Origin: Methanocalculus chunghsingensis
GTDB lineage: Archaea; Halobacteriota; Methanomicrobia; Methanomicrobiales; Methanocorpusculaceae
Assembly (NCBI RefSeq): GCF_018132105.1
Contig: NZ_JWHL01000001.1
Span: 62,001 to 126,000 of the forward strand
Length of the DNA: 64,000 nt
Direction of reading: 5' to 3'
The notes beneath the pieces were generated by a model, which was given only the letters and a program-made list of their open reading frames with translations, had not been told where the DNA came from and made no database searches. Within the stretch, counting starts at the first letter, position 1. Every line of letters begins with the position of its first letter. This document shows, piece after piece, positions 13,200-34,564 of this stretch. Made by a program: the position numbers and the translations under genes.

Positions 13200-13766
13200 A
13201 TGAGCGAAGGGAAGAAGGAGATTCGTGATAAACTCCGTCATAAAAAGGAGATGCTGACCCCTGACGAACGGTTTGAGAAGAGCAGGGCAATTTGCAGCCA
13301 TCTTATGGAGCTTATTTTACCTGGCGAGACGGTGATGGTCTATACCTCGAAAGAGAAGGAGGTCAATACCGTTCCACTCATCACAATGCTGTTATCATAT
13401 AGACATCCTGTCATTGTTCCCATCATCCAGAGCGAAGATGTCAGTCTGAGGCTTTCATATCTGGAGAATATGATGGTTCTCGTTCCAAGTACCTTCGGCG
13501 TTCCTGAACCGATAGGGAATGAGATACCGGCAGATGGTGCGGATGTCGATACGATCATCCTTCCGATGCTCGGCTTTGACAGGAAAGGGGGACGAATCGG
13601 GTATGGTGCCGGATATTATGATCGGTTCCTTGCTCAGTATCCGGATATCAGGAAGATTGGAATTGCATTTGGATGCCAGGAGGTTGATTCGCTTCCTCTG
13701 GATCCCCATGATGTCGTCATGGACGCTATCGTGACCGAGGAGGGCGTCGTCTACCGGAGGGTATAA
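13200..13766 (+). CDS. 5-formyltetrahydrofolate cyclo-ligase family protein
   Basis: A 188-residue protein of the 5-FTHF cyclo-ligase fold. It has the basic N-terminal KKEIRDKLRHKKE helix, LPMLGFDRKGGRIGYGAGYYDRFL (the conserved glycine-rich substrate/ATP loop) and the GCQEVDSLPLDPHD segment. In bacteria the enzyme makes 5,10-methenyl-THF. In a methanogen using H4MPT the true substrate is less clear, but its position immediately upstream of ftr suggests a role in C1 metabolism or cofactor repair. It ends 3 bp before the ftr start. Confidence 0.9.
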   Translation: MSEGKKEIRDKLRHKKEMLTPDERFEKSRAICSHLMELILPGETVMVYTSKEKEVNTVPLITMLLSYRHPVIVPIIQSEDVSLRLSYLENMMVLVPSTFGVPEPIGNEIPADGADVDTIILPMLGFDRKGGRIGYGAGYYDRFLAQYPDIRKIGIAFGCQEVDSLPLDPHDVVMDAIVTEEGVVYRRV

Positions 13767-13769
13767 TTG

Positions 13770-14660
13770 ATGAAGCTTGGGGAGACGGTGATCCTTGATA
13801 CATTTGCAGAGGCATTTCCTATCTGGGTATCACGAATCATCATTACTGCAGATACCATTGAGTGGGCGCTTGCAGCTGCACAGGAAGCGACCGGCTTTGC
13901 AACCTCTAAGATCTTCTGCCCATGTGAAGCCGGGATTGAAGGGATTGTTCATGATACCCCGGATGGACGGCCCGGCGTCTCAATCCTCATCTCTGCTGAG
14001 AAGAAACAGATGCGATCCAATGTGAGTGACCGGATATCGCAATGTATTCTCCCAGCTCCTACGGCATCGGCATTCGATGGCCTCCCTGATGCCGTCGATC
14101 GCTTCTATACCCGTATGCACTATTTCGGGGATGGCTATGAGGAAAGATGTATCATCGGTGGGAGAAACTGCTGGCGGATCCCTGTGATGGAGGGGGAGTA
14201 TATCGGAGAGGAACGCTATGGCACGGTGAAGGGGATCGCCGGAGGCAACTTCCTTGTGATGGCAGAGGATCGGTCGACGGCCCTTGTTGCAGCCGAGGCC
14301 GGGGTCCGGGCTATTGACCCTCTCCCTGATGTCATCACCGGCTTTGCCGGGGGTATCGTCGGCAGTGGATCAAAAGTCGGATGCAGAAACTATCGTTTCC
14401 CGATGCCCGCAAGTACGAACCATGCCTGGTGCCCGACACTGAGAGGTACAATTCCCGACTCCGAGGTTCCTGAAGGGGTGAACTCTATCTATGAGGTTGT
14501 CATCAATGGAATTGGTGAAACTGCTGTAAAAACGGCGATGAAGGCAGGGATTGAATCGGCTGTCGGAGCTGGCGGGATTCTGTATATCGGGGCATCGAAC
14601 TTTGGCGGGAAGCTAGGGCCGCACCGGTTCAGGCTTCACGATCTCTTCTCTTCAACATAG
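13770..14660 (+). CDS. ftr: Formylmethanofuran--tetrahydromethanopterin formyltransferase
   Basis: A 296-residue cytoplasmic enzyme that transfers the formyl group from formylmethanofuran to H4MPT, the second step of CO2 reduction to methane. Matching regions include DTFAEAFPIWVSRIIIT, CPCEAGIE, FGDGYEE, GNFLVMAEDR, GSKVGCRNYRFPMPAS and the C-terminal GILYIGASNFGGKLGPHRF. The GGAGG ribosome binding site at 13756-13760 favours the ATG at 13770 over a TTG just before it. The 3' end overlaps the convergent MOT1 transporter gene by 32 bp. The preceding enzyme, formylmethanofuran dehydrogenase, is a Mo or W protein, which gives the neighbouring molybdate transporter a metabolic logic. Confidence 0.96.
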   Translation: MKLGETVILDTFAEAFPIWVSRIIITADTIEWALAAAQEATGFATSKIFCPCEAGIEGIVHDTPDGRPGVSILISAEKKQMRSNVSDRISQCILPAPTASAFDGLPDAVDRFYTRMHYFGDGYEERCIIGGRNCWRIPVMEGEYIGEERYGTVKGIAGGNFLVMAEDRSTALVAAEAGVRAIDPLPDVITGFAGGIVGSGSKVGCRNYRFPMPASTNHAWCPTLRGTIPDSEVPEGVNSIYEVVINGIGETAVKTAMKAGIESAVGAGGILYIGASNFGGKLGPHRFRLHDLFSST

Positions 14661-15801
14661 TGCGCCCCCATCCCCTTCTTCTTTCAAGGCCATATGATGC
14701 GATCATTCCGATCACAAATGCCGGGGTGATCCCCCAAATGAGAGCGATGACTGCCATCAGGATCGTCACCGGGTAGGATGGTGACTTGGCCCCATGCTTG
14801 CCAAGCTCGATTGCAACAAAGACAAGAAGACCCCCGAAGATGCCATATGGAATTAATGTCAGTACCTCTGGTGGTGCAAATGCAACTGCAAAACCAAGGA
14901 TAAGAAGGCCGGCAATAATATTTGCCCCACCTGTCCGGGCGCCGAAACGGTACTGTGCGGCAAGGCCCCCGGCTCCATGGCACATTGGAAACCCTCCAAG
15001 AGGTGATGAGACGAGGTTCATCACGCCGATCGTCTTTGAAAGTGTGTCCGGTTTCACCTCCCGCCTCAAGAGATCGATGGTTAGCAGTGAGGTCGCAAGG
15101 ATGGCGTTTCCGAGGGTGAGTGGCATCTGTGGAATGGCAAGATGGATCGCAGCAAAAAGCCAGTCTCCGGTTGCAGGGATGATCAACTCAGGGATTGGGA
15201 TGCTCCTGAATGGTGGCATCCCCTGAGCCATGACTCCGGCAACCAGTCCGATTCCAATGACGATAAGCGATGATATGTCCGGCAGTCCGCTTCGTGATGA
15301 GGCAATGAAGAAGAAGATGACGATCCCGATTGCAACCGCTCCAAAAATAAGATCACTGATGATATATCCAAGAGCGGTCCTGATAAGAATAAGGGCAAGG
15401 CCGACCTGTATCCCCCGGATGACACTCTCCGGGACCCATCTCTGTATCCTCTCCATCCCTTTAAGATGGCCGATGATGAGGAAGACAAGACCGATGATGA
15501 TCCCGGATGCGGCTATCTCTCCCCCAGTCAGCCCTTCTGCTATGGCAATCGCTCCAATTGCCTTCATTGGCTCGATCGGAATGGGGAGACCGTAATAGAT
15601 ACCGGTGATGATGAACCATAGACCTATAAAAACGAAGGCATAGCTGACGTTAATTCCTGTTGCAATCCCTGCGCCGAGGATAATGGGAAAAATTGTCCCG
15701 AAGTCCCCGACCGACCCGGAGAGTTCGCGGAGCGAAAAACGGATTTTTTTTGTTGCCTTGGGATCTGGTTGTAATCCGTTATTCGTGGTGTTATCTGCCA
15801 C
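14629..15801 (-). CDS. MOT1-type molybdate transporter
   Basis: A 390-residue protein with about ten membrane segments. It carries the two signature stretches of the MOT1 (sulfate-transporter-like) molybdate family: ELSGSVGDFGTIFPI near the N-terminus and GGFPMCHGAGGLAAQYRFGA around residues 276-295, plus PIPIEPMKAIGAIA. Eukaryotic MOT1 imports molybdate with high affinity; prokaryotic members are assigned by similarity. The start is a GTG at 15801. It is convergent with ftr (32-bp overlap) and lies a few kilobases from the WtpABC genes, consistent with molybdate or tungstate uptake. Confidence 0.85.
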   Translation of the reverse strand: MADNTTNNGLQPDPKATKKIRFSLRELSGSVGDFGTIFPIILGAGIATGINVSYAFVFIGLWFIITGIYYGLPIPIEPMKAIGAIAIAEGLTGGEIAASGIIIGLVFLIIGHLKGMERIQRWVPESVIRGIQVGLALILIRTALGYIISDLIFGAVAIGIVIFFFIASSRSGLPDISSLIVIGIGLVAGVMAQGMPPFRSIPIPELIIPATGDWLFAAIHLAIPQMPLTLGNAILATSLLTIDLLRREVKPDTLSKTIGVMNLVSSPLGGFPMCHGAGGLAAQYRFGARTGGANIIAGLLILGFAVAFAPPEVLTLIPYGIFGGLLVFVAIELGKHGAKSPSYPVTILMAVIALIWGITPAFVIGMIASYGLERRRGWGRTMLKRRDREA

Positions 15802-17438: not shown

Positions 17439-18506
17439 CTATATCGGGTCAAGTACCCGGATTGCTGCCTCTGGTATAAGAATGGTAATCAGGTCTCCTT
17501 GTTTGACTGCTCCATTCTGTATTAATCCGGAAGGGATATCTGCATGAATCCTGTTACCAGGAAACGATCCTATCACTTCTATCAGGGCGCCATCCTTTCG
17601 GATAGAATCAACATTGCAGTCAATAGAGATCGGATTTTGAAGACTTCCATTTTCAAATCCCTTAATACTCATATCTTCTGATCGAATGCCCAGAGCGATC
17701 TTCTCACCAGTAAGCCGTTCTGTCTGAATCCGAAGATCATTTCCCCCGAGTCTGATGAGCCCTTTTTTTCCATCTCTCCCTGAGATGACACAATCAAAGA
17801 TATTTTCATATCCCACAAATGAAGCGACAGTCTTCGTTGTAGGATGATACATCACTTCTTCCTTTGTTCCCTCCGCGATAAGCTCTCCGTCATTGAGCAG
17901 GATGATCTGATCGGCAAGGTTTCGGGCTTCACTCCTGCTGTGTGTAACCTGAATGATCGTTACATTCTCTTTCTCCCGAATTAATTGGAGGTCCTGAATG
18001 AGCCGCTTTTTTGTGGGTGGATCAAGCGCAGAGAATGGTTCATCAAGGAGGAGAACCTTTGATTCAACTGCCAGCGCCCGAGCAATTGCCACTCGTTGTT
18101 GTTCTCCTCCTGATAATGTGGCAGGGTACCTTTCTTTGAGATGGCTGATGTTTAGGAGCAGAAGTAGTTCAGAGACGATCTCTTCAATCTCTCCTTTGGT
18201 CTTATGTAGTACTTTGAGACCATATCCAATATTTTTAAAGACGGTCATATGAGGGAAGAGTGTGCTGTCCTGATACACAAGTGCCATATTGCGCTTCTCC
18301 GGTGGAAGATCTGTCACATCTCTATCATTACATACTACTCTGCCTTCAGAAAGGATATGCAGACCTGCAAGAGCTTCAAGAATTATGGTCTTTCCGGCCC
18401 CGGATGGACCTATGATGAAACACCACGAACCCCTGTGGACCGAAAATGTCACTTTTTTGAGGGAAAAAGCTCCGAGTCTGAGCGTAACCTCTTCACACGC
18501 GATCAT
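17439..18506 (-). CDS. wtpC: Tungstate/molybdate ABC importer, ATP-binding subunit (WtpC-like)
   Basis: 355 residues. Walker A GPSGAGKT, signature LSGGEQQRVAIARAL, Walker B VLLLDEPFSALD and a switch His (VTHSR) are all present. A C-terminal ~110-residue extension (from about FDCVISGR) has the look of the TOBE/MOP metabolite-binding domains of ModC/WtpC, with LGIRSEDM and IHADIPSG. The start is ATG 18506, preceded by GGGAGGT; it overlaps the permease gene. It is the last gene of the nine-gene operon. Confidence 0.85.
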   Translation of the reverse strand: MIACEEVTLRLGAFSLKKVTFSVHRGSWCFIIGPSGAGKTIILEALAGLHILSEGRVVCNDRDVTDLPPEKRNMALVYQDSTLFPHMTVFKNIGYGLKVLHKTKGEIEEIVSELLLLLNISHLKERYPATLSGGEQQRVAIARALAVESKVLLLDEPFSALDPPTKKRLIQDLQLIREKENVTIIQVTHSRSEARNLADQIILLNDGELIAEGTKEEVMYHPTTKTVASFVGYENIFDCVISGRDGKKGLIRLGGNDLRIQTERLTGEKIALGIRSEDMSIKGFENGSLQNPISIDCNVDSIRKDGALIEVIGSFPGNRIHADIPSGLIQNGAVKQGDLITILIPEAAIRVLDPI

Positions 18507-19317
18507 CGTACCTCCCAAGGAACCTGGTTACACTCCTGACCAGAAGGAAGATCCCAAAACAGATCACAATCATAAGAAATGCAAGACCCTGTGCCTCTGC
18601 AATTCCCCCTGTTGTGAATCGATAGTAGATAAGTGTCGAGATAACCATTGGATAATACGCTATTATGATAACTGCAGCAAACTCCCCGATACTTCGCCCC
18701 CATGCGAGCAGGGCACCATTGACGATCTCCCGTGTAGCAAGGGGGAGAGTTATTGTTACAAACGCATAGCTGTGTGTTGCTCCAAGAGTTCGTGCGGCGT
18801 TCTCCAGATGGACAGGGACTTTTTCAAAACCCTCTCTGACAGCATTCACATAAAATGGAGCGGAGACAAATGTCATGGCTGCGACAATTCCCGGAAAAGC
18901 CTCTTCAAAGATGATGCCCACGGCAGACATGGGTGCACCGATTAATCCTTCCCGCATAAACAGGAGGTAAACAAGAATCCCCGCAACTGTATGGGGGAGG
19001 ATAAGTGGAATATCGACGATACTTTCAATGATGCCCCGAAACCGGGACTTCGTCCGGGCAAGATAATATGCAAGCGGCGTACCAATGAGGCTCAGAATCA
19101 TGACAGCACACATTCCTGCAAAGATTGTGAGAAAGAGTGCATGGAGCACTGCATGATCTCCAGCAATCCGGAGAAATCTTTCAATATCGTTTATCTGAAT
19201 CACGGTCAGTGTACCGAGAGCCAGAATAGTAACCAGTATGATTGTAGATCCTGGGATCAAAAATGGTATGAGCGATCTGTCATAATGTCTTCGCCGATGT
19301 GGATTACGTTCAACCAT
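18493..19317 (-). CDS. wtpB: Tungstate/molybdate ABC importer, permease (WtpB-like)
   Basis: A 274-residue membrane protein with about six helices. The cytoplasmic loop EAARTLGATHSYAFVTITLPLA-like segment (ENAARTLGA ... LPLA) is the EAA motif that contacts the ATPase. PLILPHTVAGILVY and WGRSIGEFAAVIIIAYYP match ModB/WtpB permeases. The ATG at 19317 follows an AAAGGTGT ribosome binding site and begins 10 bp after the binding-protein stop; an upstream extension in frame overlaps that gene and is unlikely. Confidence 0.88.
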   Translation of the reverse strand: MVERNPHRRRHYDRSLIPFLIPGSTIILVTILALGTLTVIQINDIERFLRIAGDHAVLHALFLTIFAGMCAVMILSLIGTPLAYYLARTKSRFRGIIESIVDIPLILPHTVAGILVYLLFMREGLIGAPMSAVGIIFEEAFPGIVAAMTFVSAPFYVNAVREGFEKVPVHLENAARTLGATHSYAFVTITLPLATREIVNGALLAWGRSIGEFAAVIIIAYYPMVISTLIYYRFTTGGIAEAQGLAFLMIVICFGIFLLVRSVTRFLGRYDDRV

Positions 19318-19327
19318 CCGGACACCT

Positions 19328-20314
19328 TTATTGTATTGGTTCAGGCCATGCTTCTCTACCTGTACTGAATGCATCCACCATGAAACCAAGGAATCGTACG
19401 GCTTCCTCCTTATTAGGTGCGGTTGAAGGGATGGCTGCAGCATAGACGATTGGCTGTCCTGTCCTGTCCATACCTATGGAACTGAACCGTTGAAAGCCGA
19501 GATGAACGGTTACAACCCCATATTCTTCATCATACATTTCAGACGAGAGATCGATCTCCGGGGGCAGATCAATCCAGTGGAGTCCATGCTCCTCTGCTAC
19601 ACTCCGATACTCAAATGCATAATCGATTCCGCCTGTTTCAAGGAGAGAGAGGAGAAAAATACTCCCGTCTCTGATTCTGACTTTGTCACCATCCGGTTGG
19701 ATCATCTCCGGGAGATGGATGGTAGTTCCAGAGGAGGTTGTTATGATTCTGGGTGGGGGATGAATATGATTTCCAAGCATCTCATCGAATATCTTCTCAT
19801 CATGATAGTAGTTCTCAGCAAGTTTTACCACCATCAATGCACGATACCCACAGGCATCAAGCATCGGATTTGAAAAACCGATCCGTACATCCGGTCTTCT
19901 GAGAATGGTATGCCAGTTCTCATCAGTTATCTCGTCTGCATAAGCGCTTCGCTCCGTATATGCGATTACGATAGCCCCTGTTGCAAAAGGGTAATATTCC
20001 TCGGTGAAGTTCCCCAATCCCTCCCCCATCGGTTGAAACATCATATCAGGGATGAGTGATTCGTCCGCAACGACAACAAGATCAGCCTGGCGGCGAAGAT
20101 CAGTAACCTGGCGAATGACCTGGATACTCCCATGACCATGGATCTGTACATCCACCATCGGGTAAATCTCCTCATATTCCGCTTCAATTGTGGCGAGTGG
20201 TCCAAGAGCACTGCCTGCTGCAAATACTCTCAGAGTCGTTTTTTCATCCTGCACTCCGGTACAACCGCTAATCAGAACAATAAAAACCATGAGAAGGAGG
20301 ATATACCTCATCAT
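19328..20314 (-). CDS. wtpA: Tungstate/molybdate-binding lipoprotein (WtpA-like)
   Basis: A 328-residue ABC solute-binding protein. The signal peptide ends in a lipobox (LISGC, Cys18). The mature chain begins LRVFAAGSALGPL and carries VQIHGHGSIQVIRQVTDL, the oxyanion-binding region typical of the WtpA/archaeal ModA group. SNPMLDACGYRALMV matches the diagnostic DPxxDPCGYR-like segment, with Ala replacing Pro. WtpA proteins bind tungstate and molybdate with high affinity; which one is preferred here cannot be told. It follows the molybdopterin-fold lipoprotein gene by one base. Confidence 0.85.
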   Translation of the reverse strand: MMRYILLLMVFIVLISGCTGVQDEKTTLRVFAAGSALGPLATIEAEYEEIYPMVDVQIHGHGSIQVIRQVTDLRRQADLVVVADESLIPDMMFQPMGEGLGNFTEEYYPFATGAIVIAYTERSAYADEITDENWHTILRRPDVRIGFSNPMLDACGYRALMVVKLAENYYHDEKIFDEMLGNHIHPPPRIITTSSGTTIHLPEMIQPDGDKVRIRDGSIFLLSLLETGGIDYAFEYRSVAEEHGLHWIDLPPEIDLSSEMYDEEYGVVTVHLGFQRFSSIGMDRTGQPIVYAAAIPSTAPNKEEAVRFLGFMVDAFSTGREAWPEPIQ

Positions 20315-20876: not shown

Positions 20877-21700
20877 CTCATCCCTCGTCGTGTATAGAGG
20901 ATACTGCATCCTGTTATTGCTATGAACACAATGAGAGAACTCATCGGGCTTTGTTGAGCATCATGGCCTGGTTCGCTCTGCAATGACTTGGCAAGAAGCC
21001 CCTGCTCGCCCTTATATCCCCCTGAATAGACCCGTATCTCATCCACCCACTTGACTGTGAAGCCATTTGTTGATGGGTAGAGATCATAGAAGTGATGAAC
21101 CGATTGTGGCATTGTCTTTTTCATGTCATCATTTCCATAGACATGGAGCCCGTCGGTATTTGTTGAGGTATCAGCAAAGAAGACGATCCTCATGCCCGAA
21201 TAAAAGTCTGGGGGGTACCCGGTTCCCTGCCGCTCACCAACGTCCGGATCAGCTCCGTTATACCAGGTGAGGACAATGGGACCTTGTCGGGGTTCGGGAT
21301 GATAGACGTTTTCGTACGGAAACTCAACATGATATCCATCCTGTGCACGTACCATAATCTCATCACCCGGAGCTGCCCCCCCGACAAGGTCGCAGAGATC
21401 ACGAATATCTGTTCCCTTGACCGATCCTTTATCCTTGAAATTTGTGGTCTCCTCCGGATCCCATTTATCTCCATCAAAGACGGGTCCCTGATGATAATAT
21501 CTTGTTATTCCATCACCGTGGACAGGGAGGTTCTCTTCCATCCATTGGTATGTCACAGTCGTTCTGCTCATTATTTCGTCAGTTTCACTGTTGATCTTTA
21601 CAACCGTTACTTCGGTTGTTGGCGCTGCCAATGTACCTGTCATACAGAGGGATAGGACAAGGAGGGTTACAACAAGCATTCGATAGATTACTTTCATCAT
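20873..21700 (-). CDS. Exported divergent SUOX-fold protein with C-terminal membrane anchor
   Basis: 275 residues: signal peptide (MLVVTLLVLSLCMTGTLA), one domain of the type shared with the two larger proteins of this operon (WMEENLPVHGDG, YYHQGPVFDGDKWDP, VKGTDIRDLCDLVGG, NVYHPEPRQGP, GFTVKWVDEIRV), and a C-terminal hydrophobic helix (SSLIVFIAITGCSIL) followed by RR. The pattern VKGTDxxDLCDLxGG ... SVKWVxEI recalls the SUOX-fold framework in a divergent form. It overlaps the phosphoesterase stop by ATGA. Likely surface-anchored; function unknown. Confidence 0.7.
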   Translation of the reverse strand: MMKVIYRMLVVTLLVLSLCMTGTLAAPTTEVTVVKINSETDEIMSRTTVTYQWMEENLPVHGDGITRYYHQGPVFDGDKWDPEETTNFKDKGSVKGTDIRDLCDLVGGAAPGDEIMVRAQDGYHVEFPYENVYHPEPRQGPIVLTWYNGADPDVGERQGTGYPPDFYSGMRIVFFADTSTNTDGLHVYGNDDMKKTMPQSVHHFYDLYPSTNGFTVKWVDEIRVYSGGYKGEQGLLAKSLQSEPGHDAQQSPMSSLIVFIAITGCSILYTRRGMR

Positions 21701-22953
21701 CTTTTTTCACTCCGATTTGTTCGTACAAAGATGCAGATAGCTGTGAGAAGTGCAGCAACAGCGATCCATCCACCAGATGGTGCTTCTACTGCCTTACTCT
21801 CCTGTGAGAGGGTAAACATTTCAAAAGTTGTTCCCTCAGGATAGATTTCGAGAATATCTTTATTATCAGGGGAAATGCGGGCAACAGGAACAAAGGCCGC
21901 CGTCATCGTCTCTTCAGTTACTGCAATCCGCAGATACCCGAGGGTATGTTCAAGACTGGTGATGTGGCCATCTTCCTTCTCTTCAGTAAGAGAATAGGTT
22001 GGTGCTCCACCGGTTCCAATGACGATATACTGTGTATTGTTTATGATATAGCGCTCATATGCATGGACATGAGCTGATACCACCATATCAACGCCATGAG
22101 AATCAAATAGTTGTCCCCATTGGTTGCGTATAGCAAGATTTCCTCCCGGGTGGCGTCTGTCGGATGTGTGGGGTGGATGATGGAAGCTGATAATTCTCCA
22201 CGTAGCCGGCCCCGTTAACTCTGATCTCAGCCACTCAGTCTGTTCGTCCATAACCGGCCATGCCCAGTCATTACTATCAAGAACGATGAGATGGACACCT
22301 CCAGCATCGACTGAATACCATTCGGGGATTCCGAAGATATCACGAAAGCGGCCTGGTGGCCCGTCATGATTTCCTATAGTTGGGATGAGTGTCGTTCCGC
22401 TGAGATAGGGTTCTGCTACATGGAAAAATTCATTCCATCCATCAGTGTCAGCCTCGTGATCATTAATGAAGTCCCCGGTATGAATGACAAAGAGCAGATC
22501 GGGTTCTGAAGCAATTCGTTCCGCAACAAGTCTGTGCCGTTCCATCTGAGTAAAAAACGGTCTCTGAGCCCGTGTATCCCCATAGATGATGAAGGTGAAC
22601 TCATCATCACCAAATGTTCTGAACTGGTATCCGGGAGAAATTTTATGAGGTGTGCCGATTCGATAATGGTAGGTTGTTGCCGGAGTCAGGTCTGAGAGTA
22701 GTACCCGGTAAATCCCATCTCCCACAACGGTACTGTTCTGGCGATGCCATGATCCCGAGAGTGGCTCCTTGGTATATTCAAGCCTGAATGTTTCCTGTTC
22801 ATTGCTCATCCATGAGATTACTGCCTCTTTTTCGGTCGTTCCTGTTACAAAAGGCCCATAAATATCAGGATTATTATTTGTTAAACCCATAACCGGAACA
22901 GTGCATACTATCAGCAAGGATATAATAACGAAGATACAGGTCTTTCTTTTCAT
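21697..22953 (-). CDS. Exported purple-acid-type metallophosphoesterase
   Basis: 418 residues: signal peptide, a fibronectin-like N-domain (YGPFVTGTTEKEAVISWMS, TPATTYHYRI) and a calcineurin-like phosphoesterase domain. The di-metal motifs are in order: YGDTRA, HTGDFINDH, GNHDGPPG, SFHHPPH and SAHVHAYER. A C-terminal helix (GWIAVAALLTAICIFV) followed by basic residues anchors it. This is the arrangement of purple acid phosphatases. Substrate unknown. It is embedded by ATGA overlaps between two SUOX-fold surface proteins, so it belongs to the same complex or pathway. Confidence 0.85.
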   Translation of the reverse strand: MKRKTCIFVIISLLIVCTVPVMGLTNNNPDIYGPFVTGTTEKEAVISWMSNEQETFRLEYTKEPLSGSWHRQNSTVVGDGIYRVLLSDLTPATTYHYRIGTPHKISPGYQFRTFGDDEFTFIIYGDTRAQRPFFTQMERHRLVAERIASEPDLLFVIHTGDFINDHEADTDGWNEFFHVAEPYLSGTTLIPTIGNHDGPPGRFRDIFGIPEWYSVDAGGVHLIVLDSNDWAWPVMDEQTEWLRSELTGPATWRIISFHHPPHTSDRRHPGGNLAIRNQWGQLFDSHGVDMVVSAHVHAYERYIINNTQYIVIGTGGAPTYSLTEEKEDGHITSLEHTLGYLRIAVTEETMTAAFVPVARISPDNKDILEIYPEGTTFEMFTLSQESKAVEAPSGGWIAVAALLTAICIFVRTNRSEKR

Positions 22954-26674: not shown

Positions 26675-29600
26675 CTATGTTGAGATTGCGGCAAGTTCGC
26701 CACTACTCTTCAGATAGATCCAGTATCCGTTCGTCGGATACAGGAGCCGGCCATCGCTGTAGCTTCCAGAACCCTCTCTGATGATCGCAGTAGCATATCT
26801 CTGTTCGCCTGCATCGTACCCGATGGTCTGTGTCCATGCGTCTCCGAGGGAGAGGAATGTGTCACGAGCGGTAGCCGGCTCAATATCGGTAAAACCAACT
26901 GCGTTCCACCCTTTCTGAAGCTCTATCGTTGGGGGTGTCATGAGTGGCTGGTTCATGAAGGTGAGCGGGATCTCTTTCCCCTGTGTGCTGTAAATCCAGT
27001 ACCCTTTCAGTGGTGTAATAAGATCTGTCTCGCCCAGCGCCTTCCAGGTTTTAAATACTGCATCATATTCAAAGATACTGTGATCTCCTGTGTCTACCTC
27101 AGCAAAGATCGATGCTGTGTTGTTTCCCGAATCAAGGCGTTTTGGTACAGAGATGAAGTTCCACCCTTCCTTGAGATGAATAACAGCATCTCCTGACACT
27201 GGTTCGGGGAAGGTGATTTCAATCTCATCGATACTCCCAACTCTCTGGCGACCGGATGTCAGATCTGATCCGACGAGACGGAGTGGCCAATATTGATCTG
27301 AGAGTGGCTGGCCATTTATTTCATCAGCGACGATGATATTGTTGTTCCGAGCAACGACCGTGCTGTGGAATGTTGCAGAAAAGTCATCCTCAGTACCTTT
27401 TACTCCATCGGGACCATAATCTATGACGGTGACATCATATCCAGCTACCGCAAGATCGTCGCGGAATGGATCTGATCCATAATCATGTTTATTTTCATCA
27501 TCAACCCACCCGACAAGTGTCCAGAGAGGCATACCCGACCATTCGTTCCCATCATTATCGATCCATGTGGCGAGGTGTGAATCCCCGGCCATCGCACAGG
27601 CCTTTCCTGCTTCAAAGTATGCTCTTTCAATGGTGTCGGTGATGGCCCCCGTCAGGCGGAGTGTCCAGTCTTCACGTGTTCCGGTGTGAATCTCTATCGT
27701 GACAATATTCTTATTCGAACATCCGGCTGCGGATGGATACTGGATTCCACCACTCCAGAAGTAATGCCAATATTCTTCTTTCAGGGTAGCCCGCATGTCA
27801 TCCGCACCAAATATACCATCTGGTGTGTTGAAGAAGAGCCGGTATCCATCTTTATAGTCCGGCACATACCCCTGACGTTCGGTCCACCAGGCGACGATTG
27901 CCTCACCCTGTCGCTCCAGCGGAGAGTTGAGGTTTGTATCATCGAGTTTCATCACATATCCATCAGATGCTCTGAGGATAATCTCGCTTCCTTCCGGTGC
28001 TCCTCCGACGAGATCGACGAGATCTTTAATCGATGTTCCCCGAACGACCTCATCAACCTTGTTTGGATTTTTATCTTCAGCGGGGTTCCAGAGATCATCA
28101 GGATCGAAGGTTGGACCCTGGAATCTGAGTTGGACACCGTCTTCTCCGCCATATACATGAAGGTTCTCCTTCATCCAGAGATAGTCCTTTGTAACATCAT
28201 CCAGAACGGTGACACCATCTGCTGCATACCTTACAATCCTGATGGATGGTGCTTCTGTTGGTGGTTCAAATGCTGTCAGTTCGATTGTTTCAATATTCCC
28301 GACACTTAAACTGCCGGTTGCCCCCTCGCCAACGAGCCGAAGCGGATAGCTGTTTCCTTCGATCGGCTCGCCATTGAGGAGATACGCAACGATGTAGTCA
28401 TTCTTGTTATTTGCGATATTCTGACTTGTGAAATCCTTGCTGTATGGGGATGCTCCTCCGGATGAGACGATAATTGTATATCCATCTGTGGCAAGCCCTT
28501 CATTGAAGGCATTTGTGCCAGTCATCAGGTCATCATCAACGATACCCGCGAGCCTCCAGAGCGGAATACCTGTCCAGATATCCTCTCCATCACTCCAGGT
28601 TTCGCTCATCGTCTCAGCCATTTCAGTAAAACTGCTTTCTGAGATCCTGGCTGAAATCTTATCCCCTTTCAGGGTTAGTACCCATTCATCCTCTGCCGGC
28701 TCCTCCGGAAGGCCATTGATGGTGATGGATGCAATCGAACCTATACGTTGCCCGCCACTTGTCAGGGCTGAGCCCTGGAGCCGGAGTGGAAAACCATTAT
28801 CCTCGGCAAGGGGTGCGGCATTCATCATATTGGCAACGATAAATCCATCACTTCGTGCAATATCAGCACCATTGAACTCCCTTGAAAAACCATCCTGAGC
28901 AGTGATAGTTACAGTATAGCCGGAGGCACGCTCATCATTGAATCTCCAGTGATTCGCGCCATTGTAGTCATCAACGACGGCAAGAAGATACCAGAGTGGC
29001 ATCCCGGTCCACACCTGATCCTGAGTGTCGGTATACATTCCGGCATGGCCGCAGGCAACTCCCTCTTCAAACTCTGACTGAGAGAATGAGCGGCTATATG
29101 CACCATTCAGGGTGATTGTCCACTCTGTGGTTGGAACGGGCAGCCCGATAAGCTCGATGGTAACTATATTTCCAATCTTCTGGCCGCTTGAGACGTCAGA
29201 TCCAACCAGCTGGAGTGGGAAACAGGGTTTTGCCTTCTCTCCAATAGTTGCAGGGAGTGGCTCGCCGTTTAATGTATTTGCAACGATGATATTATCGTTC
29301 CGTGCGACTGTGGCACTCTGGAAGTTGATCGAGTATCCGTCGCCTGCAATAACCTTGACTGAATAGCCTTGAGCTGCAAGCTCATCATTGAACGCGTCAC
29401 TGCCATGTGAATTTTCATCATCGACATATCCTACCAGCCACCATAATGGCATTCCGGACCAGACGTTCCCATCATCGTCAGTATAGGTTGCGACATGAGG
29501 GTTTGTCTGACAATCTGTTCCTGCCTCGAAATAGGTTCGATGAATGATCTCTTCCCGAGCTCCTTTCAGAGTGAGGATCCAGTCTTCTGCTGGTGGCTCA

Positions 29601-30658
29601 TCGACAGAGATCTCCATCCGGATGTATGCTTCAGCTGTTTCAAAAGAAAGTGGCCTGACACCGTAAAAAAACTCGACGATATCTCCATCTTCAAGAGAAT
29701 AGATGTTAAGTCCGTCGTTTGCGGAATTACCCCAGTCATCGAGTGTGTATCCATTGACGGCACATTCCCAGGTTCTGGTCGGTCCGTCATCAGGTCTTTC
29801 ATAGAGATAATCTTCTATTCCATCAAGAAGAAGGATTCCTCGGCTGCTGATTGCACGATCGTTGATAGTAAGGGGAAATCCGGTTGCTTCAAGTGCGCCA
29901 AGTGGTGTCAGCCTGCTAATCTCGTATGATTCTCCTGATGTTGCACGTACATTCACCGACTCGTCTGAGAGCTCCATTGTTCCATCAAAGAGGATATCAG
30001 TTTCATCATCCGGTGGAGCTTCTTCATTGCTCATAATCCGGATTTCACTGATATATTTCACTGAGAGTCCGGTTGTTGTCGGATAGATGTCAAAATAATG
30101 CCAGTACTCCTCGGGGAATGTCTCCCGCATATCATTTACACCAAAAACGGTATCATCTGCGAAGAAGACAAGCATCATTCCGTCACTAAAGTCCGGAACA
30201 TATCCGTCACCTGCACGGTACCATGTAATACCTATCGGTCCCTGCCTGGATTCCGGATTATAGACGTTGTTATATGGGAAATCCTTGGAGAACCCGTCGA
30301 ATGCACGAACCCTGACGGTTTCACCATCGCTCATACCTCCGGCAAGATCGCAGATATCAGCGAGATCGGTACCCTTTACCGCTCCCTGATCCCTGAGGTT
30401 GACATCCTCCCCGGGATTCCAGGGGTCCCCATCAAATACAGGCCCCTGATGGAAGTAACTGGTCTCTCCATCTCCAAGTACAGGAAGGTTTGCTTCCATC
30501 CATTCATAATCGACGACCGTTTCGTTGATGATCGTCGTTTCGTCAGCTGCATACTTGATAACCCGCAGCTCGGTCGTTGCTGCCGTGACAGGTGCGATGA
30601 TCAGCCCTATCATCAACAGAATCAATAGTATTCTGTAACGATTCCCAAAATCAATCAT
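26675..30658 (-). CDS. 1327-residue exported protein with repeated molybdopterin-fold domains
   Basis: Signal peptide to about residue 27 (Sec-like, no twin-arginine). Domain order: type A domain 28-212 (WMEANLPVLGDG, FHQGPVFDGDPWNP); DUF4430-like region 222-333 (GDIVEFFYG); three type B SUOX-fold repeats at 358-505, 512-648 and 658-795; a second type A domain 801-990; a fourth type B repeat 997-1150; two C-terminal units 1158-1235 and 1244-1325 (GWNFISVP ... KGYWIYS; GWNAVGF ... NGYWIYL). Type B repeats share W-[ST]-G-[MI]-P-L-W, DGY/DGF, NGEPL and PL-R-L-V-G-S-D, the framework of sulfite-oxidase-type domains. A Cys stands before the WSGMPLW strand at 383, 536 and 1021 but is missing in the third repeat. 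It is the first gene of the operon ending in WtpABC. Confidence 0.8.
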   Translation of the reverse strand: MIDFGNRYRILLILLMIGLIIAPVTAATTELRVIKYAADETTIINETVVDYEWMEANLPVLGDGETSYFHQGPVFDGDPWNPGEDVNLRDQGAVKGTDLADICDLAGGMSDGETVRVRAFDGFSKDFPYNNVYNPESRQGPIGITWYRAGDGYVPDFSDGMMLVFFADDTVFGVNDMRETFPEEYWHYFDIYPTTTGLSVKYISEIRIMSNEEAPPDDETDILFDGTMELSDESVNVRATSGESYEISRLTPLGALEATGFPLTINDRAISSRGILLLDGIEDYLYERPDDGPTRTWECAVNGYTLDDWGNSANDGLNIYSLEDGDIVEFFYGVRPLSFETAEAYIRMEISVDEPPAEDWILTLKGAREEIIHRTYFEAGTDCQTNPHVATYTDDDGNVWSGMPLWWLVGYVDDENSHGSDAFNDELAAQGYSVKVIAGDGYSINFQSATVARNDNIIVANTLNGEPLPATIGEKAKPCFPLQLVGSDVSSGQKIGNIVTIELIGLPVPTTEWTITLNGAYSRSFSQSEFEEGVACGHAGMYTDTQDQVWTGMPLWYLLAVVDDYNGANHWRFNDERASGYTVTITAQDGFSREFNGADIARSDGFIVANMMNAAPLAEDNGFPLRLQGSALTSGGQRIGSIASITINGLPEEPAEDEWVLTLKGDKISARISESSFTEMAETMSETWSDGEDIWTGIPLWRLAGIVDDDLMTGTNAFNEGLATDGYTIIVSSGGASPYSKDFTSQNIANNKNDYIVAYLLNGEPIEGNSYPLRLVGEGATGSLSVGNIETIELTAFEPPTEAPSIRIVRYAADGVTVLDDVTKDYLWMKENLHVYGGEDGVQLRFQGPTFDPDDLWNPAEDKNPNKVDEVVRGTSIKDLVDLVGGAPEGSEIILRASDGYVMKLDDTNLNSPLERQGEAIVAWWTERQGYVPDYKDGYRLFFNTPDGIFGADDMRATLKEEYWHYFWSGGIQYPSAAGCSNKNIVTIEIHTGTREDWTLRLTGAITDTIERAYFEAGKACAMAGDSHLATWIDNDGNEWSGMPLWTLVGWVDDENKHDYGSDPFRDDLAVAGYDVTVIDYGPDGVKGTEDDFSATFHSTVVARNNNIIVADEINGQPLSDQYWPLRLVGSDLTSGRQRVGSIDEIEITFPEPVSGDAVIHLKEGWNFISVPKRLDSGNNTASIFAEVDTGDHSIFEYDAVFKTWKALGETDLITPLKGYWIYSTQGKEIPLTFMNQPLMTPPTIELQKGWNAVGFTDIEPATARDTFLSLGDAWTQTIGYDAGEQRYATAIIREGSGSYSDGRLLYPTNGYWIYLKSSGELAAIST

Positions 30659-30894: not shown

Positions 30895-31701
30895 ATGCAT
30901 CGAAGACGTGAAATTGAATCAAAACTGAAGGGTGAAACCCTTGGGCGAAGAGGATTGCTCAGGAGATATGAAGGGCGTGAGCAACTCAGGATAGCACCGA
31001 ATGTGAATGTTGTTAAGATTGGAGGACATGGCATCGTCGATTATGGAGCACCGGTTCTAAAGCCCCTTGCTTCCGAGATCGGTGCACTTTCCCGTGATCA
31101 TCAGATGCTAATTGTGACCGGTGGCGGAGTGCGGGTTCGGCATATTCTGGATATCGGTCTCGATCTGGGGATGCCGACCGGTGTTCTGGCCGAACTATCC
31201 GGTAAGGTAAGTGAGCAGAATGCCATTATGATGTCCGTTCTTCTCTCTGAATATGGGGGTGCCAGAATTCATTCCCCTGATCTTCTTGAGCTTCCAATGC
31301 TCCTGAAGATGGGGATCCTTCCTGTAACGCATGGCACTCCACCCTACGGACTATTTGAATCTCCCCCGGACATTGGAATGATCCCTCCCCACCGGACAGA
31401 TACTGGTGCCTTCCTCATTGCCGAGGTTCTTGGGGCAAAATCCTGTATTCTCATGAAGAATGTTGATGGACTCTTTACAAGCAATCCACTGACTGACCCT
31501 CATGCAGAACTGATCGAAGAGATACGTGCATATGAGATTCTTGATATGGAGATGGATGATCTTGTCCTTGAAGAGAAGGTTGTTGAGATGCTTCCGCATG
31601 CAAAAGCCGTTCGTGAGATCCAGATCATTAATGGGCATCTCCCAGGTATGCTGACACGGGCACTGAAAGGGGAGCGTATCGGGACTATCATAAAAGCATA
31701 A
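30895..31701 (+). CDS. Molybdenum storage protein homologue (amino-acid-kinase fold)
   Basis: A 268-residue cytoplasmic protein of the UMP-kinase-like fold. It resembles the Azotobacter molybdenum storage protein subunits MosA/MosB along its whole length: VVKIGGHGIVDYGAPVLKPL, VTGGGVRVRHILDIG, LSGKVSEQNAIMM, PPYGLFESPP, IPPHRTDTGAFLIAE, KNVDGLFTSNP and the C-terminal VREIQIINGHLPGMLTRAL and GTIIKA. In bacteria a MosA3B3 cage stores polyoxomolybdate or tungstate clusters using ATP. A single subunit gene is present here, implying a homohexamer. The first ~35 residues are basic. The GAGGTGATC sequence just upstream serves as ribosome binding site. It heads the run leading into tupABC. Confidence 0.82.
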   Translation: MHRRREIESKLKGETLGRRGLLRRYEGREQLRIAPNVNVVKIGGHGIVDYGAPVLKPLASEIGALSRDHQMLIVTGGGVRVRHILDIGLDLGMPTGVLAELSGKVSEQNAIMMSVLLSEYGGARIHSPDLLELPMLLKMGILPVTHGTPPYGLFESPPDIGMIPPHRTDTGAFLIAEVLGAKSCILMKNVDGLFTSNPLTDPHAELIEEIRAYEILDMEMDDLVLEEKVVEMLPHAKAVREIQIINGHLPGMLTRALKGERIGTIIKA

Positions 31702-31827: not shown

Positions 31828-32748
31828 ATGAATTGTAAGGGTTTTATACTTATAGGTGCCTTGATTATTTCCGGGCTCCTTGTTGCAGGATGTGTTGACA
31901 GCGAGACACAGCCCGGAGTGCCCGAAGAGCTCCGGATCGCAACCACAACCAGTCTCTATGATACCGGGCTCCTTGACCATCTCCAGCCGATCTTTGAGGA
32001 GAGATACAATGCAAAACTGCTGATCGTCTCTGCAGGGACCGGCAAAGCACTTGAATACGGTATGAGAGGCGATGTTGATGTGATGATGGTTCACGATCGA
32101 GCCCGTGAAGATACCTTCATCGCAGAAGGCCATGGTGTGGAACGCCGTGTCATCGCGTACAACTACTTCGTTATTCTCGGCCCTGAGTCAGATCCTGCCG
32201 GGATTCGTGGAACATCACCCGAAGAAGCATTCCGGACACTTTTTGAACAGGGAACTGCCGGAGAATCAGGTATTGCTTTTGTCTCCCGTGGAGATGAGTC
32301 AGGTACTCACGCAAAGGAGAAGGCGATCTGGAGATCTGCCGGATATGACTATGCAACCGATATCCAGAACTCCGGGATATGGTATGTCGAGGCAGGACGT
32401 GGAATGGGCGAAACCCTGGTGATGGCAAATGAGAAGGAGGCATATACCCTTTCAGATAAAGGAACTTTCCTTGCATACAAAGGAGATCTTGGGATCGTTC
32501 CGGTCGTCGATGAAGGGGAGATCCTTCTGAATGTCTACTCCACCATGCTGATCAACCCCCAGACACACACCGGGATTGATACCGATCTTGGAAAAGCATG
32601 GATCAACTTCCTCATCTCAGATGAGGCTCAAGAGGAGATTGCGACATTTGGTGTCTCCGAGTATGGAGAACCCCTCTTCTTCCCTGCACAAGGCAACTGG
32701 GAGAGAATGGGTGTTCCACAGTCTGAAGTGACAGAGCCGGTGCTCTGA
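31828..32748 (+). CDS. tupA: Tungstate-binding lipoprotein TupA
   Basis: 306 residues with a lipobox (LLVAGC, Cys21 from the ATG at 31828). The mature chain contains the TupA hallmark ATTTSLYDTGLLD (the TTTS oxyanion-binding motif), AGTGKALEYGMRGDVDVMMVHD, the SRGDESGTH motif and GMGETLVMANEKEAYTLSD. TupA proteins bind tungstate with very high selectivity over molybdate. The start at 31828 is chosen because the lipobox then sits 21 residues in. A permease and ATPase follow. Confidence 0.93.
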   Translation: MNCKGFILIGALIISGLLVAGCVDSETQPGVPEELRIATTTSLYDTGLLDHLQPIFEERYNAKLLIVSAGTGKALEYGMRGDVDVMMVHDRAREDTFIAEGHGVERRVIAYNYFVILGPESDPAGIRGTSPEEAFRTLFEQGTAGESGIAFVSRGDESGTHAKEKAIWRSAGYDYATDIQNSGIWYVEAGRGMGETLVMANEKEAYTLSDKGTFLAYKGDLGIVPVVDEGEILLNVYSTMLINPQTHTGIDTDLGKAWINFLISDEAQEEIATFGVSEYGEPLFFPAQGNWERMGVPQSEVTEPVL

Positions 32749-32799
32749 TAACACTATCTTTTTCTTTGCCATCGGCGTAGTAAACAGGGATTACCTTGT

Positions 32800-33486
32800 A
32801 TGAATGAGATCATCAGCGGTTTCCTCACCGCTCTTCACCTGATCATCACACTTGACCCCGGGGTTATCGAGATCTCGATCCGGAGCATCCTGATCTCGCT
32901 CTCTTCAACGCTTATTGGAGCCTTGATTGCAGTTCCTATCGGGGCGACAATTACCTTCTCTGAATTTACCGGGAAGCGTTTCCTTGTCAACATTATTCAG
33001 ACCCTCTATGCTCTCCCAACGGTTCTTGTCGGCCTATTTGTCTTCCTGCTGATATCACGTGCTGGTCCACTGGGATTTATGCGCCTTCTCTTCACCCCGG
33101 AAGGGATGGTAATTGCCCAGACAGTTCTTATTCTGCCAATCCTGGTTGGCCTGACGATATCTGCTTTAAAAGGTCTCGATACGACGATTCTTGATACTCT
33201 TCGGTCTCTTGGCGCAACAAAGATACAATTTCTGCGTTCAGTTGTAAAAGAAGCACGTTATGCTATTATGGCCGCTGTTGTCCTCGGTTTTGGTCGCGCT
33301 ATCTCTGAAGTTGGTGCCGCGATTATGATCGGTGGAAATATCCGGGGACATACCCGTGTCCTGACGACCGCGATCTCACTTGAGACATCCATGGGAAACC
33401 TGGCCGTCTCTATTGCCCTGGGTATTATTCTTCTCATGATAGCACTTGTGATCAATCTCCTCCTTGCAGTTGTGCAAAACCGGTGA
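32800..33486 (+). CDS. tupB: Tungstate ABC importer permease TupB
   Basis: A 228-residue membrane protein with about five hydrophobic helices. The EAA loop is visible as TLRSLGATKIQFLRSVVKEA, and LGFGRAISEVGAAIMIGGNIRG matches TupB/ModB-type permeases. It follows tupA by 51 bp and ends 4 bp before the tupC start. With tupA and tupC it forms a complete tungstate importer. Confidence 0.93.
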   Translation: MNEIISGFLTALHLIITLDPGVIEISIRSILISLSSTLIGALIAVPIGATITFSEFTGKRFLVNIIQTLYALPTVLVGLFVFLLISRAGPLGFMRLLFTPEGMVIAQTVLILPILVGLTISALKGLDTTILDTLRSLGATKIQFLRSVVKEARYAIMAAVVLGFGRAISEVGAAIMIGGNIRGHTRVLTTAISLETSMGNLAVSIALGIILLMIALVINLLLAVVQNR

Positions 33487-33490
33487 TACC

Positions 33491-34564
33491 ATGCTTGAGA
33501 TACATAATCTGTCAAAGCAGTTTGGTGATTCAGAGGTGCTGAAAGGGGTCTCGCTGAAGGTTCCGAAAGGAGAGATATTTACCATCATCGGACCTTCCGG
33601 GGCCGGGAAATCAACACTTCTTCGCCTGATAAACCTCCTTGATACCCCGACCGAAGGAACCATCCTTCTCGATGGTACGGATATTCATAAAGAGAAGAAT
33701 ATGGCGGTCAGACGGCGGATGGGGATGGTCTTTCAGAAACCGGCGATCTTTAACCAGTCCGTTTATGAAAATGTCGCTCTCGGTCTTCGTTTCAGGCAAA
33801 TTGATGAAAGGGTTATCCGAAAGAAGGTTGCTGATGCGCTTGCGATCGTCGGCCTCACCGGTTTTGAAGAGAGGAAGGCAAAAACACTATCCGGGGGTGA
33901 GATGCAGCGGATCGCTCTTGCACGTGTCCTCGTCACCGATCCTGATGTTCTTCTTCTGGATGAGCCTACCGCAAATCTTGATCCCGTCTCTGTCAGGGTT
34001 ATCGAAGAGCTTGTGCAACGGATTCATCATGAGTTTCAGACGACGATTATCATGTCAACTCATGATATGTTCCAGGGACAGAGACTTGCCCATCGTATCG
34101 GGGTGATGATAGATGGAAAATTCGCACAGTTCGGCACACCACGCGAGATCTTTACAACTCCGAATGACAGATTTGTGGCACGATTCGTTGGTATTGAAAA
34201 TGTCATTGAGGGTAGAATCATCTCTAAGGATAGGGGCATAGCATTTATTCAGGTTGGGCGAATCACCATTCAGGCACTATCTCCTCTCCCAGTCGGAACA
34301 GATGTCACCATCTTCTTCAGACCTGAGGATGTTGCGATAAGTTGTTCTTCATCCCATGCAGAAAGTGTACGTAATGTATTCCCGGGGCAAATTGTATCCA
34401 TTACGCCCATGGGCCCATATAATCGCATTATTGTTGATTGTGGGGTGAAGATCATTGCGATGATAACGTACATGGCAACTGAGGATCTCGGTTTGAAGGA
34501 AGGATCTGATGTCTGTGTCTCATTCAAGGCAACAGCGCCTCATATTCTTGCAGCAGAAGAGTGA
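33491..34564 (+). CDS. tupC: Tungstate ABC importer ATPase TupC
   Basis: 357 residues: Walker A GPSGAGKST, signature LSGGEMQRIALARVL, Walker B VLLLDEPTANLD and the switch His in MSTHD. The C-terminal ~110 residues (after FVGIENVIEGRI) form a TOBE-like domain with FFRPEDVAI, which probably senses oxyanion levels. I choose the ATG at 33491; a longer reading would overlap tupB. Its domain plan parallels that of the WtpC-like ATPase at 17439-18506, so the locus carries two parallel importers. Confidence 0.92.
   Translation: MLEIHNLSKQFGDSEVLKGVSLKVPKGEIFTIIGPSGAGKSTLLRLINLLDTPTEGTILLDGTDIHKEKNMAVRRRMGMVFQKPAIFNQSVYENVALGLRFRQIDERVIRKKVADALAIVGLTGFEERKAKTLSGGEMQRIALARVLVTDPDVLLLDEPTANLDPVSVRVIEELVQRIHHEFQTTIIMSTHDMFQGQRLAHRIGVMIDGKFAQFGTPREIFTTPNDRFVARFVGIENVIEGRIISKDRGIAFIQVGRITIQALSPLPVGTDVTIFFRPEDVAISCSSSHAESVRNVFPGQIVSITPMGPYNRIIVDCGVKIIAMITYMATEDLGLKEGSDVCVSFKATAPHILAAEE

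Follow-up and report, generated by a model that had tools for sequence, protein, structure and literature searches.

The window, a 64,000-nucleotide stretch of Methanocalculus chunghsingensis DNA, carries on its minus strand an operon that encodes, in order, a giant exported protein, P0003, P0002, a metallophosphoesterase, P0006, P4, WtpA, WtpB and WtpC. The giant protein is encoded by a 1327-residue ORF with an ATG start (26675..30658, minus strand) and matches PF00174 in Pfam with an E value of 1.9e-21. It comprises six SUOX-like domains, two of type A and four of type B, arranged as A-B-B-B-A-B and all encoded on the minus strand. Type-A domain 1 (residues 28-210; 30029..30577; located by HMM, with a SUOX/PruR-like fold according to AlphaFold and Foldseek) is followed by type-B domain 1 (residues 359-503; 29150..29584; HMM, AlphaFold and Foldseek), which bears Cys383 and His388, type-B domain 2 (residues 512-646; 28721..29125) with Cys536 and His538, type-B domain 3 (residues 658-794; 28277..28687), which has neither the Cys nor the His, type-A domain 2 (residues 805-991; 27686..28246; HMM) and type-B domain 4 (residues 997-1148; 27215..27670) with Cys1021 and His1028. 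The complete ABBBAB order is found in 16 proteins, and the repeats are thus not due to chance. The initial annotation had counted four SUOX-fold repeats; the fold of these four is confirmed, and the number rises to six because the two type-A domains share it. Of the motifs it described, W[ST]G[MI]PLW is present in all four type-B repeats (residues 400, 550, 695 and 1040), with Cys383, Cys536 and Cys1021 each upstream of WxGxPLW and no such Cys in the third repeat, while NGEPL...PLRLVG applies to repeats 3 and 4, with repeats 1 (PLQLVG) and 2 (NAAPL, PLRLQG) keeping it loosely. Type-A domains are longer than type-B domains; one is also the sole domain of P0006, and in P0002 the type is combined with PEGA domains. 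No Pfam match was found for the inter-domain region 216-355 or for the C-terminal 177 residues of the giant protein; the C-terminus (26678-27208, minus strand) displays two copies of a GWNxxx...GYWIY repeat.

The genes downstream of the giant gene, all on the minus strand, encode P0003 (25305..26663), which is exported, has a C-terminal membrane anchor and gives a weak PGF-pre-PGF match; P0002 (22950..25280), in which a type-A domain precedes the PEGA domains; an exported, purple acid phosphatase-like metallophosphoesterase with a membrane anchor (21697..22953; PF00149, E value of 1.6e-13); P0006 (20873..21700), with its single type-A domain and a C-terminal membrane anchor; P0004, here P4 (20316..20909), a lipoprotein with one PF00174 domain identified through Pfam; WtpA of a cluster-specific subfamily (19328..20314); the permease WtpB (18493..19443); and the ATPase WtpC (17439..18518). 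The longest-ORF start of wtpB overlaps wtpA, and the true start is probably located further in. No PF00174 match was obtained in the genome outside this cluster. Divergently from the giant gene lies a homologue of the molybdenum storage protein (MoSto) subunit beta (30895..31701, plus strand; PDB code 2ogx_B, E value of 2.1e-58), similar genes of which are found in a few related loci, and next a TupABC-like tungstate ABC transporter (31834..34564, plus strand), recognised by TupA, TupB and WtpC-like models with matches that all fall under the equivalog cut-offs. A MOT1-type molybdate transporter (14629..15801, minus strand; PF16983, E value of 4e-54) constitutes the third Mo/W importer in the window. 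Since the MoSto homologue, TupABC and MOT1 lie near the WtpABC cluster, the region is regarded as a Mo/W handling island. Near this island are genes for formylmethanofuran-tetrahydromethanopterin formyltransferase (13767-14660, plus strand) and, adjoining it, 5-formyltetrahydrofolate cyclo-ligase (13200-13766). Neither an Rfam Moco riboswitch nor any other regulatory RNA was identified in the window.

Sequence searches against the PDB returned borderline SUOX matches for type-B domains and P4 and no match for type-A domains, so that a comparison of folds was needed. AlphaFold modelling, with 75 B sequences and 28 A sequences as input, gave mean pLDDT values of 96.5 for the B domain and 96.8 for the A domain. 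The top PDB match in Foldseek was PruR for both, 7kos for the B model (E value of 9.6e-6) and 7rkb for the A model (E value of 2.6e-5); sulfite oxidases, nitrate reductase and YedY came next. The SUOX fold that had been proposed for the type-B repeats is thus borne out, and structure prediction of the B domain, suggested at the time as a check, did not yield a fold unrelated to SUOX. PruR binds pterin in the periplasm and has a SUOX fold, in which Trp replaces the Mo-ligand Cys (Mo-Cys) and the site is truncated; its pocket is reportedly too small to accommodate Moco, and it serves as an extracytoplasmic pterin sensor (PMC13259868). Direct profile alignment of A with B by hhalign is weak, and A domains are better linked via P4. 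About half of the type-A copies end in G-x-S-V-K, which is related to the Lys-Trp end of P4. No conserved Cys is present at the Mo-Cys position of type-A domains, and the B domains no longer carry the C-terminal Lys-Trp that belongs to the SUOX motif.

P4 aligns to canonical SUOX proteins without gaps around the Mo-Cys, with a probability above 99% in profile alignment. Among 58 P4 sequences the Mo-Cys position is occupied by Ser (89%) or Thr (8%), and the C-terminal Arg (100%), Lys (94%) and Trp (100%) of the PLR and VKW motifs are retained; in SUOX enzymes these Arg and Lys-Trp residues presumably bind the phosphate of the pterin.

In a set of 164 B domains, Cys is found in 139 of 162 (85%), and each of these 139 Cys-bearing domains has a His 0 to 6 residues after it. 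Both residues are kept in all copies of repeat 2 (28) and repeat 4 (24). In the third repeat the Cys is missing from the close relatives of the window and is present in 19 of 28 copies overall, Cys and His being mostly both kept in other genera. This conservation makes the Cys-His pair look functional. In the AlphaFold model of B1, Cys383 (local residue 28) comes after the first helix (19-26) and before the third strand (35-38), whereas in the canonical SUOX proteins collected the Mo-Cys ends that strand, as in QRQDFHCVTGW. An ungapped reading brings the Mo-Cys position near a conserved Asp (96%) of the B domains, and hhalign places the B Cys on the Mo-Cys only by opening an eight-residue gap. 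The model therefore suggests, with moderate confidence, that the Cys lies at the opposite end of this strand from the Mo-Cys, in a separate site; the role of Mo ligand for which the initial annotation had put it forward probably does not apply, as it precedes the strand whose end bears the Mo-Cys. Overall, the Mo-ligand Cys has apparently been lost from the SUOX-fold domains of the array proteins.

The N-terminus of the giant protein is hydrophobic, contains no RR and looks like a Sec-type signal, and an RRx-phi pattern was observed in only 5 of 163 type-A proteins from the window and related loci. The signal peptide was already described as lacking a twin-arginine, in contrast with the Tat route by which Moco enzymes are normally exported folded; this argument is upheld, and the N-terminal sequences support export that is Sec-type, not Tat-type.

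The cluster WtpA scores 317.9 bits against TIGR03730, for which the curated cut-off is 242.75 bits. Members of its subfamily score above 300 bits, compared with about 200 bits for the second WtpA of the same genomes. His61, which adjoins a likely ligand Ser, is invariant in the cluster WtpA (54/54) and is Ala in canonical copies. Ser35, Ser63 and Asp153 are likewise invariant, while position 218 is Ser where crystallised homologues have Glu; Ser also stands there in the other WtpA of these archaea. The oxyanion ligands of canonical WtpA are presumably two Ser, an Asp and a Glu. These substitutions hint that the substrate of the cluster WtpA may have changed and is maybe not plain tungstate.

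A P0005-like WtpA is encoded in 71 of 199 Methanomicrobiales genomes, all 71 of which also have strong B-domain matches, and 9 of the 199 have B-domain matches without the subfamily WtpA (Fisher p of 2e-44 with phylogeny ignored, the counts sharing ancestry and not being independent events). Of the 51 pairs that share a contig, 46 are within 14 kb (median 7.9 kb), and the five exceptions belong to families f1 and f2; the linkage is strong, not absolute. Among the loci scanned, many of them short contigs, 56 contained WtpA, 56 contained P4 and 37 contained the phosphoesterase. Related loci come mostly from Methanomicrobiales, with others in Methanosarcinales/ANME, GoM-Arc1 and one Peptococcaceae genome, and the order SUOX-domain genes, P4, WtpA recurs across them. 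The system is missing from many related methanogens, including genomes of the same genus, and no relatives of the cluster were found on plasmids. In one genome (G023, contig C18, 11145-12560) the subfamily WtpA is spread over two frames, and both the WtpA match and the P4-like match are broken by a TGA, which suggests that this cluster is decaying. Three archaeal-looking clusters (L017, L033 and L045) are located on short contigs titled Clostridiaceae, Omnitrophota and Chloroflexi, and these contigs may be misbinned.

The reading that we favour, in which belief and doubt are about evenly balanced, is that the giant protein has no catalytic role and belongs, as a surface protein, to a system for acquiring molybdenum or tungsten. 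It is probably not an enzyme; at the cell surface it probably captures Mo or W, either bare or pterin-bound. That metal or pterin might be captured externally had been raised from the outset, and the link is now backed by PruR as best fold match and by the neighbouring Mo/W ABC transporter. Extracellular Mo or W would be bound by Sec-exported arrays of SUOX domains, B domains holding the metal as oxyanion or thioanion through the Cys-His pair, and PruR-like type-A and P4 domains holding it via a pterin. The lipoprotein P4 would hand the metal to the cluster WtpA, WtpBC would import it for cofactors such as that of formylmethanofuran dehydrogenase, and the MoSto homologue may store it. This surface Mo/W system is favoured by the recurring gene order and co-inheritance, by the A and B fold being closest to that of a pterin binder without Mo-Cys, by the Ser/Thr of P4 at the Mo-Cys position together with the near absence of Tat signals, and by the adjoining MoSto homologue, TupABC and MOT1 in a genome with PF00174 only in this cluster. 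It is weakened by the small PruR pocket and the missing Lys-Trp of B domains, by His61 of WtpA, the MoaA-, MoeA- and MoaE-family genes present in the genome and the many relatives without the system, and by the fact that domain arrays could equally be structural. In an unlikely extension, the archaea would scavenge the metal on extracellular molybdopterin or tungstopterin: the arrays would bind the cofactor, the phosphoesterase, as we infer its role, would dephosphorylate it, and the metal would pass to the adapted WtpA. With the MoaA, MoeA and MoaE families present, cofactor import need not occur, and lost cofactor biosynthesis is not supported as a motive for scavenging.

That these are structural or adhesive surface proteins, in which the SUOX fold is a mere building block and the transporter a neighbour by history, is doubtful: the giant multi-domain build, the PEGA domains, the membrane anchors and the loss of the Cys-His pair from some repeats would fit, but the pair is near-invariant, complete in every domain that has the Cys, and co-inheritance with one WtpA subfamily is strict. 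A surface system that senses pterins as signals and regulates, or is co-regulated with, the linked transporter is clearly improbable. It would draw on PruR, the nearest fold for both A and B and itself an extracytoplasmic pterin sensor (PMC13259868); however, the operon showed no DcpA-like receptor, WtpABC is the constant gene partner, and up to six domains per protein would be excessive for a sensor. Least credible, and very unlikely, is an unusual active molybdo- or tungstoenzyme with the metal ligated by the B-domain Cys, for which the hhalign pairing of this Cys with the Mo-Cys and the genetic link to Mo/W transport could be cited. The Cys is predicted before the key strand and not at its end, there is no Tat signal, no redox partner gene was seen in the cluster, and domains of about 145 residues come without the SUOX dimerisation domain.

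How anaerobes obtain scarce Mo and W in sulfidic settings is little understood, the available descriptions dealing mainly with membrane transporters. A surface system inherited together with a single transporter subfamily would supply the outer stage of Mo/W uptake that is missing from this picture and would show that the SUOX fold has been reused many times as a binding module; P4, the WtpA subfamily and the B domains are open to direct testing.

No described family with such an architecture was found in the literature searched, a scope outside which most subscription papers fall, and a text search of the ANME genome survey PMC9012536 returned no mention of the cluster. The giant protein shares with the sulfite oxidase family (SUOX, SorT, YedY/MsrP) the fold and the PF00174 signature, and differs in its repeated domains and in having no clear Mo-Cys-site residue, Tat signal or dimerisation domain. 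The cluster WtpA passes TIGR03730 and is a homologue of MA_0280 and AF_0094, but in contrast with known WtpABC systems it forms a separate subfamily with an invariant His61, always accompanied by B-domain proteins. The MoSto neighbour is homologous to subunit beta of the Azotobacter protein, but it is a single, archaeal gene with a putative storage role. A SUOX fold without Mo-Cys is already known from PruR (PDB codes 7KOS, 7KP2 and 7RKB), which, like the giant protein, is exported and devoid of the Mo-ligand Cys (probably so for the B domains). PruR consists of one domain of about 170 residues and is encoded beside DcpA in Proteobacteria, whereas the archaeal proteins have up to six domains and are encoded beside WtpABC; sequence identity is about 11-17%, and the B domains bear a Cys-His pair, unlike PruR.
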